From a virus, in the IMG/VR virus record IMGVR_UViG_3300037054_000148, positions 62,001-126,000 of that record: a DNA stretch of 64,000 nt; one strand, written 5' to 3'. A program made the translations under genes and the position numbers. Each line of letters begins with the position of its first letter. The stretch's first letter is position 1. A model generated the notes under the pieces. It had not been told where the DNA came from. It saw only the letters and a list, made by a program, of their open reading frames with translations, and made no database searches. This document shows, one piece after another, positions 15,429-39,555 of this stretch.

Positions 15429-18400
15429 ATGTCTTCTAACTCGGTCATAGTTCTTCAGCCTGGGGTTCCTGGGGATCTTGGTCCTACAGGTGTGACCGGG
15501 GGAACTGGCAATACAGGTAACACCGGCATTGGCTTGACGGGACCGACCGGAGCGGCAGGGCCTCCAGGGGTGGGGTATACGGGTCACACAGGGGCTACAG
15601 GGCCTACCGGAGCAACCGCAGGTAACACTGGGGCCACCGGACCAACTAGCACGGTTCCTGGACCCACCGGACCATCAGGTTCGACTGGCCCAGAGGGGCT
15701 TCCTGGGGTAACCGGACCGACCGGAACCACTGGCCCCATCGGACCAACGGGAAATACGGCTGGAAATACAGGCGGCACTGGCCCTACAGGTCAAACTGGA
15801 AACACCGGCCCAGCAGGAACTTCCGGTTCGACCGGCTCCGCAGGGCTTCCAGGAAGCTCAGGATCGACTGGGAATACTGGGTATACCGGACCTACCGGAC
15901 CCAGCGGAGCTACAGATGGAAATACCGGCCCCACTGGTCCAACCGGCCCCTCCGGGGGGTTTGGGTTAACTGGAAATACTGGAGTTACGGGCTATCCGGG
16001 GTCAACCGGAGGCACTGGAGGCACTGGAGGCACTGGCCAGACCGGACCGACCGGAGCAACTGTTGGAAATACAGGTGGTACCGGACCCACCGGGGCAACT
16101 GGACAGACCGGCCCCTACGGTTCAACCGGAGGAACAGGGCAGACGGGTGTGGGGATTACCGGACCGACCGGAACCACCGGTTCTATTGGTCCTTCTGGGG
16201 CCACGGATGGAAATACCGGTGTAACTGGGGGTACCGGAGAGACAGGGGCAACGGGAAACACCGGAAATACGGGAAACACAGGGTCTGGAAACACCGGTCC
16301 GACCGGAATGACCGGCATGACTGGGGTTACCGGCCCCTCTGGGGCTACGGATGGCAACACTGGGCAGACCGGTTCGACCGGACAAACTGGTTCCACCGGT
16401 ATTCAAGGGACCACTGGTAAGACAGGGTTTACCGGCTCTACCGGCTCAACTGGCGCGACTGGCTCAAATATTGGTATCACAGGTGTAACCGGCCCGACTG
16501 GAATCACTGGAAACATCGGAAATTCAGGAACAACGGGGAATACTGGATCTACCGGCCCTACGGGTGCGACCGGACCGACCGGAACCGTTACCGGAGGCAC
16601 TGGAAATACTGGAAACACCGGTTCTACAGGATACACTGGCCCTACGGGTGCGACCGGACCGACTGGAACCGTCACCGGAGGCACTGGAAATACCGGTCCG
16701 ACTGGAAATACCGGCTCCACCGGAGGCACTGGTGCGCTCGGACCGACCGGAACCGTCACCGGAGGCACTGGGAACACTGGAAATACGGGAAATAGTGGCC
16801 CAACCGGACCAACCGGACCAACTGGTCCGACCGGAACCGTCACCGGAGGCACTGGGAATACCGGAAACACAGGAAATACGGGTTCAACTGGGTCTACGGG
16901 ACCGACCGGAGCCTCTGGGCCAACCGGAACGATGACCGGAGGCACCGGAAACACTGGAAACACCGGAGCAACAGGTAACTCTGGACCGACTGGGGCGACC
17001 GGACCGACTGGGACAATGACTGGGGGCACCGGAAATACTGGTGCGACCGGACCGACTGGAAAAACAGGCAATACTGGACCGACCGGAGCTACCGGACCGA
17101 CCGGAACTGTCACCGGAGGCACTGGAAATACCGGCAACACTGGAAATTCTGGTCAAACTGGTCAAACTGGGGCGACTGGGGCGACTGGACCCACCTCAAC
17201 GGTCACTGGGAATACCGGAAATACGGGAAATACGGGAAATAGTGGCTCAACCGGAACTACCGGAGCCACTGGAAATACCGGACCGACTGGAACCGTCACC
17301 GGAGGCACTGGAAACACCGGTCCGACTGGAAATACCGGCTCCACCGGAGGCACTGGGCTTACTGGAAACAGCGGAGCGACCGGAAATGTCGGTTTGACTG
17401 GAAATACCGGCCCAACTGGAAATACAGGACCAACCGGCGCTACCGGACCGACTGGAACTGCCACCGGAGGAACTGGAAACACTGGAAACACTGGAAATAC
17501 CGGTCAAACCGGCTCCACGGGTCAGACCGGACCGACTGGGGCGACCGGACCGACTGGGACAATGACTGGGGGCACCGGAAATACTGGTGCGACCGGTCAG
17601 ACCGGAGCCACTGGGCTCACCGGTAACCTCGGATCCAATGGAAATCAGGGAAACACTGGGAATAGTGGGACAACTGGAAATACAGGCTCTACGGGGGCAA
17701 CTGGACCAACGGGTGCGACCGGACCCACCTCAACTGTAACAGGAAACACCGGAAACACTGGCTTAACTGGCCCTACTGGAGCAACTGGGATCAGCGGACC
17801 CACCGGAGCAACCGGTCTCACAGGAAATAGTGGGGCGACTGGGGGAACCGGAGGAATCGGCTTGACTGGTAACACTGGTCCTACTGGAGCCACTGGTCCC
17901 ACCTCTACAGTTACAGGAAATACAGGAAATACTGGGGGCACCGGTCTAACCGGTCTAACCGGTGTGACCGGAGGAACTGGTCTTACTGGTTTGACTGGCA
18001 ACAGCGGAGCCACAGGGGGTACCGGCCTTACTGGGAACAGCGGAGCCACAGGAGCCCCCGGTCCCACCTCCACTGTCACCGGCCCTACGGGTGTGACGGG
18101 ACAGACTGGGCAAACCGGACAGACCGGACAGACCGGACAGACCGGACTTACTGGTGCGGCAGGCCAGACCGGCGCAACCGGCCCCACCGGCTTAACTGGT
18201 GTGCTGGCCCCAGGAAATACTGGAAATACAGGAAATACTGGTGGGACTGGCAACACCGGAATGACCGGTCAGACTGGCGCTGGAGTCCCCACTGGTGGGT
18301 ATACGGGTGAAGTGCTGACTAAGAACAGCACCACGGATTATGATGTCAGTTGGCAGCCATCAGCCGGTGGGACTGGTGGCGGGGGAGGAGCAACCGGGCC

Positions 18401-38347: not shown

Positions 38348-39555
38348 GCAACCTTCCTAGCAAGAATATAGAAACTCCAAAACGCATCCGGATAGCAAGA
38401 ATACTCTTCTACACGTAGATTGGTGTTTTGATTGATCCATTTAGTTAGAGTGAGAGGGGATGGAGCCCATACGTGGTTATCCCCCACCCATAGCCCCCCA
38501 GGCTTCCACATTTCCATAGATGGGTGCGGTAGGTAGATTAAACAGGTTCCTCCAACCCTGAGAGAGGCATCCCACAATCTTAACTCTTCTCCCCATTCTT
38601 TTATATGTTCTAGGCAGTGAGAAGAGAAGATGTAGTCGAATGGAGCTTGGTTAAACCGGCTCCTCTCGCTTTCATTATGAATGGCGATGGCTCCTGGAAG
38701 TGGCCACTGACTGGAACCAACATCAAGCCCCTTTCCTCGGCAGTGCATTAAGGCGATGGGTTTAATTCCCTCCGTTCCATTACCTTCATTCAGGTATACT
38801 GGGTATTTCTCCTCTTGTAGGGCGGATTCGATTTCCCACGTTAACTCTGTCTTGTTCATAGCCCTCTGAACCCCTGGATAGGCTCGGGTGGCCGCAGGGT
38901 AGAGGGGGCTGTAAAATCCCACAATTTTTCTTACCCCAGTCGCATGAGCGATGTGAAGCCCAGAGCTATCGGGGCCAATGAACATATCAGCTTTGCGGAT
39001 AGCATCTACAAATTCTTCATTTGGCATTCCAGACCGAAGTAGGGTGATCGGATTTCCAGATTTTCGCATAAGCTCCATGGGGAGGTCTGATGCGGTAAAG
39101 TCTCGCCCATCTGCTCTCCCACTTTCTCGTAGTTGGATTACAATCGAGTGATCAGATTCAGGCCCGTAGGAGTTCAAACAGGGGGTTCGGCGCAAGAGTC
39201 GAACATTTGCAACCGCAGCAAACGCATCTACTCCATGTAGTCCACAAAGCTGCTCGATCACTCCATTAAAGGAGAAGTGGTTGACGGGAGTTTCCTCATC
39301 AAACAGCCCATTCATATCCGTAATGAGGGGTCCGGTTTCCATTTTTCCGTAACGGCTAAAATCGTCGTTCTCTAGGAGAACCCTCCACACGAATGGGCTG
39401 CCTGCTAACACCCAGGCATACTGCTTGTGAGTTCTGATGATGATTCGGGCCGGAGCATATTCATAATAGAGGGCTTCGATGGTTGGTTCGATCATCAACC
39501 AGTCCCCAATGCCACCACCTCTCGTAATCACGATATAGTTATAACCTTGGTCCAC
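38344..39555 (-). CDS. GT9-like glycosyltransferase fused to a methyltransferase
   Basis: The protein has 403 aa. The N-terminal ~235 residues follow the family-9 (heptosyltransferase-like) plan: ITRGGGIGDWLMIEPTIEAL at the start, then MFIGPDSSGLHIAHATGVRK and IVGFYSPLYP. From residue ~265 a second domain begins with GKGLDVGSSQWPLPGA (motif I), DYIFSSHCLEHIKEW and LRVGGTCLIYLPHP, a class I SAM methyltransferase. It is the first gene of the minus-strand operon, downstream of the divergent intergenic region at 39556-39650. It pairs logically with the 933-aa enzyme that combines the same two activities. Confidence 0.8.
   Translation of the reverse strand: MDQGYNYIVITRGGGIGDWLMIEPTIEALYYEYAPARIIIRTHKQYAWVLAGSPFVWRVLLENDDFSRYGKMETGPLITDMNGLFDEETPVNHFSFNGVIEQLCGLHGVDAFAAVANVRLLRRTPCLNSYGPESDHSIVIQLRESGRADGRDFTASDLPMELMRKSGNPITLLRSGMPNEEFVDAIRKADMFIGPDSSGLHIAHATGVRKIVGFYSPLYPAATRAYPGVQRAMNKTELTWEIESALQEEKYPVYLNEGNGTEGIKPIALMHCRGKGLDVGSSQWPLPGAIAIHNESERSRFNQAPFDYIFSSHCLEHIKEWGEELRLWDASLRVGGTCLIYLPHPSMEMWKPGGLWVGDNHVWAPSPLTLTKWINQNTNLRVEEYSCYPDAFWSFYILARKVA

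Follow-up and report, generated by a model that had tools for sequence, protein, structure and literature searches.

Threonine-rich collagen-like fibres and a glycosyltransferase operon in a large myophage: a candidate system of fibre O-glycosylation

The collagen-like fibre genes and their surroundings

The DNA analysed here, referred to as the window, is a stretch of 64,000 nucleotides covering bases 62001-126000 of the 313,597-base record IMGVR_UViG_3300037054_000148, and forms one part of this 313.6-kb myophage record. Two collagen-like fibre proteins, both proposed here as acceptors of sugar, are encoded on its plus strand: P0001 (15429..19883, 1484 aa) and P0002 (24036..26657, 873 aa). 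Both ORFs pass the PF01391 cut-off with Gly at every third position over long runs, and both are as rich in Thr as a preliminary description of this DNA had claimed. When clean triplets are defined as those in GXY runs of at least 7 triplets, Thr occupies Y in 238/303 triplets of P0001 (79%) and in 164/255 of P0002 (64%), where Ser takes a further 40 (16%); the ratio of Thr at Y to Thr at X is 238:18 and 164:5, respectively, far off an even split. As Pro is scarce at X (21% of P0001 triplets and 6% of P0002 triplets), low helix stability would be expected for both proteins in the absence of modification. Two more collagen-like ORFs are found elsewhere in the record. Among the collagen-like ORFs of this phage other than P0001 and P0002, one (L012, 12347-13861) mixes Thr and Gln at Y, in GXT and GIQ triplets, and its Y composition differs from that of both window collagens.

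P0001 is syntenic with gp29, the collagen-like tail fibre of Tunturi_5, a 309-kb myophage of Acidobacteriota (PMC11924767). The gene order in Tunturi_5 is the collagen fibre gp29 (fraction of Thr at Y, or Thr(Y), 0.59), the paralogues gp30-33, the small gp34 and a convergent glycosyltransferase (GT), gp35. Behind P0001 in the window lie four tandem plus-strand paralogues of about 295 aa (19880-20758, 20749-21660, 21858-22733 and 22735-23631), which are homologous to the gp30-gp33 that come after the Tunturi_5 collagen fibre, and a small plus-strand ORF of 116 aa (23622..23972) that takes the place of gp34 by position only. The collagen/GT module is common to the window phage and Tunturi_5. A structure model of a paralogue has a pLDDT of 89 and finds its best solved match in a baseplate chain of phage JBD30 (E 3.4e-4); the four are probably baseplate- or fibre-associated virion proteins.

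The contractile-tail sheath gene of the window (50921-54796) encodes 1291 aa, of which only about residues 946-1289 match the sheath family; its best cultured relative is the sheath of Tunturiibacter phage Tunturi_5, at 41.6% identity over the full length, and the long N-terminal part is common to the two. A UvrD-like helicase of 912 aa (42574-45312) probably has an intein inside, as its residues 474-507 match the intein-splicing domain (PF14890); the corresponding proteins of relatives L015 and L017 are about 641-645 aa long. Three ORFs resemble GIY-YIG-type homing endonucleases (33434-34243, 27179-27781 and 40879-41532), one of which overlaps P0004, described below, at its 3' end, while another lies directly behind the collagen region. 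The defence-system families searched gave no match.

The minus-strand operon and its GT2-TPR enzyme

An operon of four overlapping minus-strand genes is situated at a distance of 7.5 kb from the nearer of the two collagen ORFs. P0004 (34210..37011, 933 aa) has a Cys-rich N-terminus and combines Methyltransf_23, GT2-TPR and GT9-like domains, matched with Pfam, PHROGs and NCBIfam; P0005 (37011..37595, 194 aa) is class I methyltransferase-like; P0006 (37592..38347, 251 aa) is an FkbM-family methyltransferase (PF05050, 41.4 bits, cut-off 22.7; TIGR01444, 64.0, cut-off 37.7); and P0007 (38344..39555, 403 aa) is a fusion of GT9-like and Methyltransf_23 domains (PF01075, 21.8 bits, cut-off 22.0; PF13489, 27.2 bits, cut-off 27.0). 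The preliminary description had seen here two GT9-like domains, one GT2 domain and four methyltransferase-like domains including FkbM. Its coordinates, the GT2 domain, FkbM in P0006 and Methyltransf_23 in P0004 and P0007 hold, while GT9 is marginal and P0005 is assigned by motif only, with no Pfam, PHROGs or NCBIfam match. The C-terminus of P0004 scores a weak 13.0 bits against GT9 (PF01075, cut-off 22.0), and its orthologue L020 in a 221-kb relative scores a clear 38.7 bits. As P0004 is kept without the other three operon genes in contigs G003 and G004 (83% identity), and as the GT9-like domain is a separate overlapping ORF in G005, P0004 is the constant part; in G004, a collagen ORF lies 0.4 kb from the P0004 homologue.

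The middle part of P0004 carries GT2 followed by TPR in one chain, an arrangement that also makes up the stand-alone gp35 of Tunturi_5 (367 aa). In a profile search of solved glycosyltransferases with a 17-sequence profile, the GT2 domains of GmaR, SunS and 7msk (ThuS) rank first, with GmaR at the top score, and the same three are found when P0004 alone is the query. The P0004 structure model is confident over approximately residues 245-605, with the methyltransferase and GT9-like parts at low confidence; a fold search with it returns SunS and ThuS as best (E 2.5e-18), followed by TPR proteins, including human OGT, and GmaR. P0004 falls outside the SunS family itself, scoring 42.3 bits against TIGR04195, for which the cut-off is 350. 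By both sequence and fold, the GT2-TPR domain is nearest to protein glycosyltransferases among solved structures. The same arrangement is known from Clostridioides difficile SgtA, in which GT2 and a C-terminal TPR form one chain, whose gene is directly upstream of bclA3, and which in vitro transfers beta-O-GlcNAc to Thr in peptides from collagen (PMC7157674). P0004 is proposed to be the initiating Thr O-glycosyltransferase, with its own domains for extension and methylation.

Other acceptors must be weighed against this proposal. That the GTs glucosylate modified bases of the phage DNA is barely credible; a dNMP kinase is encoded nearby (41936-42583) and a ribonucleotide reductase-like gene lies two genes after the P0004 orthologue of the 221-kb relative, but the nearest solved relatives of the domain act on polypeptides. 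The thymidylate synthase family is the usual source of hydroxymethylated pyrimidines, and PF00303, which represents it, has no match in the 313.6-kb record, which may be less than the whole genome. DNA glucosylation was set aside as unsupported, given the absence of a thymidylate synthase-family gene from that record.

A second possibility is that the operon changes glycans on the host surface, for instance to keep other phages out, and that the collagens are unrelated to it. Most of family GT9 consists of heptosyltransferases of lipopolysaccharide synthesis, and FkbM proteins are frequent in pathways of this kind; the GT9-like and FkbM enzymes of the operon are compatible with acceptors other than fibres. 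However, P0003-P0007 contain no strongly hydrophobic segment, and the operon has neither a flippase nor a match to a membrane-anchored Gtr glycosyltransferase family, so that it does not qualify as an O-antigen conversion (Gtr) cassette; the kinship of the GT2-TPR domain to protein glycosyltransferases likewise speaks against a host glycan. This reading is considered quite unlikely, also in light of the bacterial homologues discussed below.

Recurrent linkage of GT2-TPR genes to Thr-rich collagens

The neighbourhoods of GT2-TPR genes in metagenomic phages were compared through a scan of IMG/VR that found 334 relatives; the 80 best of these were used and fell into 53 clusters at 70% identity. 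A collagen ORF lies within 10 kb of the GT in 21/53 of these clusters, within 3 kb in 17 and within 500 bp in 10, and 32 have no collagen within 10 kb; these counts come from best-scoring hits, obtained with seeds that include collagen-linked phages, on viral contigs that are mostly fragments. The collagen is on the GT's own strand in 18 of the 21 linked clusters. Linkage is seen in 1/15 control clusters of ribonucleotide reductase (p 0.013 compared to GT); UDP-galactopyranose mutase and PhoH, also scanned as controls, yielded too few loci for use. When the GT is placed at random within the same loci, a mean of 2.4 clusters fall within 500 bp, and the observed 10 was reached in 0/2000 trials. 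Comparative genomics, which the preliminary description had put forward as a check on its idea of decorated fibres, gives that idea good support, with GTs found repeatedly only a few hundred bases from Thr-rich collagen genes.

The linkage extends to the composition of the collagens. In comparison to viral collagens sampled by their Gly pattern, blind to the Y residue, the GT-linked collagens have a far higher median Thr(Y) (0.54 vs 0.11; p 3.5e-7), and this holds when the window's own lineage is left out (p 3.6e-6). A tree of 87 homologues puts the number of changes required for the linked state in phages at 15, with at least 9 of them forced by well-supported branches, although the state is mildly clustered (10/500 shuffles are as low); these counts are approximate because the tree is a quick one with long branches. 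Linkage to collagens with Thr at Y is recurrent and is scattered over the GT tree. It could be argued that Thr at Y only stabilises collagens that are free of hydroxyproline, and that the pairing with a GT is accidental. In bacterial collagens, Y is occupied by Thr more often than by any other residue (PMC8968730), and of 11 viral collagens in which Thr fills 60% or more of the Y positions, 6 lack such a GT on their contig; a related fragment (L402) has a Thr-rich collagen and the four-paralogue genes with no GT. Against this stand the repeated close adjacency, well above the random mean at 500 bp, and the rise in GT presence with Thr(Y), from 4/65 viral collagens below 0.6 to 5/11 above it (p 0.002). 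An accidental pairing therefore seems very unlikely.

The acceptor could instead be another virion protein, such as the four paralogues, the baseplate, the sheath or the capsid, with the collagens being mere neighbours in the fibre region. Glycosylated capsid and tail-tube proteins are on record in mycobacteriophages (Freeman 2023, in the form in which PMC12619734 cites it), and the GT homologues of phages PaBG, JA11 and SNUABM_3 are situated with genes of the head and tail, at a distance from the collagens, which are poor in Thr. However, the association is specific to Thr at Y, and no GT is on the contig of any of the 14 Ser-rich viral collagens. In addition, among 77 four-paralogue loci that lack the window lineage's operon, a collagen is near in 16, but a GT2-TPR gene is within 10 kb in none; therefore, the paralogues mark fibre regions and not glycosylation. 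As a co-marker of the GT, the four-paralogue family was rejected on these counts, although such fourfold tandem sets do recur in other phages behind genes for collagen-like fibres. Another virion protein as the acceptor is considered unlikely.

In cultured and complete phages, the pattern is similar but has exceptions. DSL-LC01 (L142, OQ999401.1), a phage assigned to Actinomycetia with a complete 129-kb genome, has two collagens (Thr(Y) 0.63) followed, in order, by a hypothetical gene, one annotated as a tryptophan halogenase and a GT. The halogenase-annotated gene (L142, 8412-9983), lying between the collagens and the GT, could be another tailoring enzyme. The preliminary description had counted an operon common in collagen-less phages as contrary to its idea; on checking, this test leaves the idea unrefuted, as collagen-like proteins are encoded in 8/10 annotated or complete phage records with the GT2-TPR family. 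Over whole genomes, co-occurrence with collagen in 8/10 GT-positive vs 3/9 GT-negative phages is suggestive only (p 0.055). In PaBG, JA11, SNUABM_3 and Lu11, the GT is present but far from the collagens, which have a Thr(Y) of only 0.16-0.25, and SPbeta and LR745206 carry the GT but lack any collagen. As Thr-poor, collagen-less and GT-less counter-cases all exist, the GT2-TPR family probably has more than one target.

The association is also found in bacteria. Strong GT homologues are present in 70 of 291 sampled Clostridia genomes, many of them in open frames approximately 360 codons long; among the best 30, a collagen ORF lies within the 1.5-kb flanks of 11, and the Y residue is mainly Thr in nearly all of the adjoining collagens. 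A pattern scan of bacterial genomes gives mostly Pasteurellaceae GT2 genes, partial matches over approximately the first 110 residues, which could be taken in favour of a host-glycan role. Unlike the full-length family in Clostridia, collagen is within 10 kb of 0/79 of these loci; this contrast is indicative only, as the Clostridia search used a wide alignment (A2) and the pattern scan a narrow one (A4); of the two, it was the Clostridia search that proved informative.

Proposed glycosylation of the fibres and its closest known systems

As this kind of GT recurs beside Thr-rich collagens in unrelated phages and in Clostridia, the fibres are probably sugar-coated, and the preferred explanation, held at a probability of roughly two in three, is a phage-encoded O-glycosylation system acting on the collagen-like fibres. 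During infection, the soluble GT2-TPR part of P0004 would bind new fibre chains through its TPR superhelix and place the first sugar on Thr at Y, perhaps also on Ser, in the manner of SgtA on BclA3 peptides. Extension of the glycan would then fall to the GT9-like domains of P0004 and P0007, and its capping to the FkbM and class I methyltransferases. Such a coat may stabilise the Pro-poor triple helices, and the hydrated fibre surface that it creates could affect adsorption or shield the fibres. We infer the fibre Thr as acceptor, the order of the steps, the methylation and the role on the virion from the gene content and the comparisons above.

A wider proposal is more tentative. It is possible that a GT2-TPR module that decorates Gly-X-Thr collagen fibres has been acquired recurrently and is common to Clostridia and to phages of several lineages, namely actinophages, unclassified metagenomic phages and jumbo phages with relatives among the Acidobacteriota phages, and that in the window lineage a fused enzyme and an operon would lead to an extended, methylated glycan, giving a sugar-coated collagen brush on the virion. 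If fibre glycosylation is confirmed, this would be, within the open literature searched, the first pathway for glycosylating collagen known from bacteriophages; it would provide a likely target for a large phage family annotated as 'beta-1,4-glycosyltransferase' or as auxiliary metabolic genes, and would link the fibres of phages with the BclA3 system of the spore surface. Tunturi_5, which infects Tunturiibacter, is a cultured phage that carries both parts and so makes a direct test of the idea possible.

In comparing the system to known ones, SunS and ThuS are the best fold match and are among the best sequence matches of the P0004 GT2-TPR part, and SunS is also phage-borne (SPbeta); however, these peptide S-glycosyltransferases modify Cys of small bacteriocins. 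GmaR, the Listeria flagellin O-GlcNAc transferase, is the top-scoring solved GT2 in the profile search, but it acts on flagellin, with an additional antirepressor role, and involves no collagen. Bacillus anthracis BclA and its relatives are glycosylated Gly-X-Thr collagens with glycans that carry O-methyl groups. The preliminary description had drawn its parallel from the GPT triplets of BclA; as these are a minority in the window collagens (52 in P0001 and 9 in P0002), that comparison is loose, and the SgtA precedent fits better. Mycobacteriophage virions carry glycans on structural proteins, although on the capsid and tail tube and not on collagen fibres according to the citation of Freeman 2023 in PMC12619734.

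The SgtA-BclA3 system (PMC7157674), compared by architecture and gene placement, has the same GT2 and C-terminal TPR chain, and Clostridia homologues of a length similar to SgtA are found beside collagens. The location of the gene beside a Gly-X-Thr collagen is likewise true of the GT family, G004 and Tunturi_5, the distance in the window being 7.5 kb. The differences lie in the phage setting, in the fusion of the P0004 GT2-TPR part to methyltransferase and GT9-like domains, and in the extra GT and methyltransferase genes. By this analogy, the window system is proposed to be a collagen glycosylation of the SgtA-BclA3 type, acting on phage fibres.
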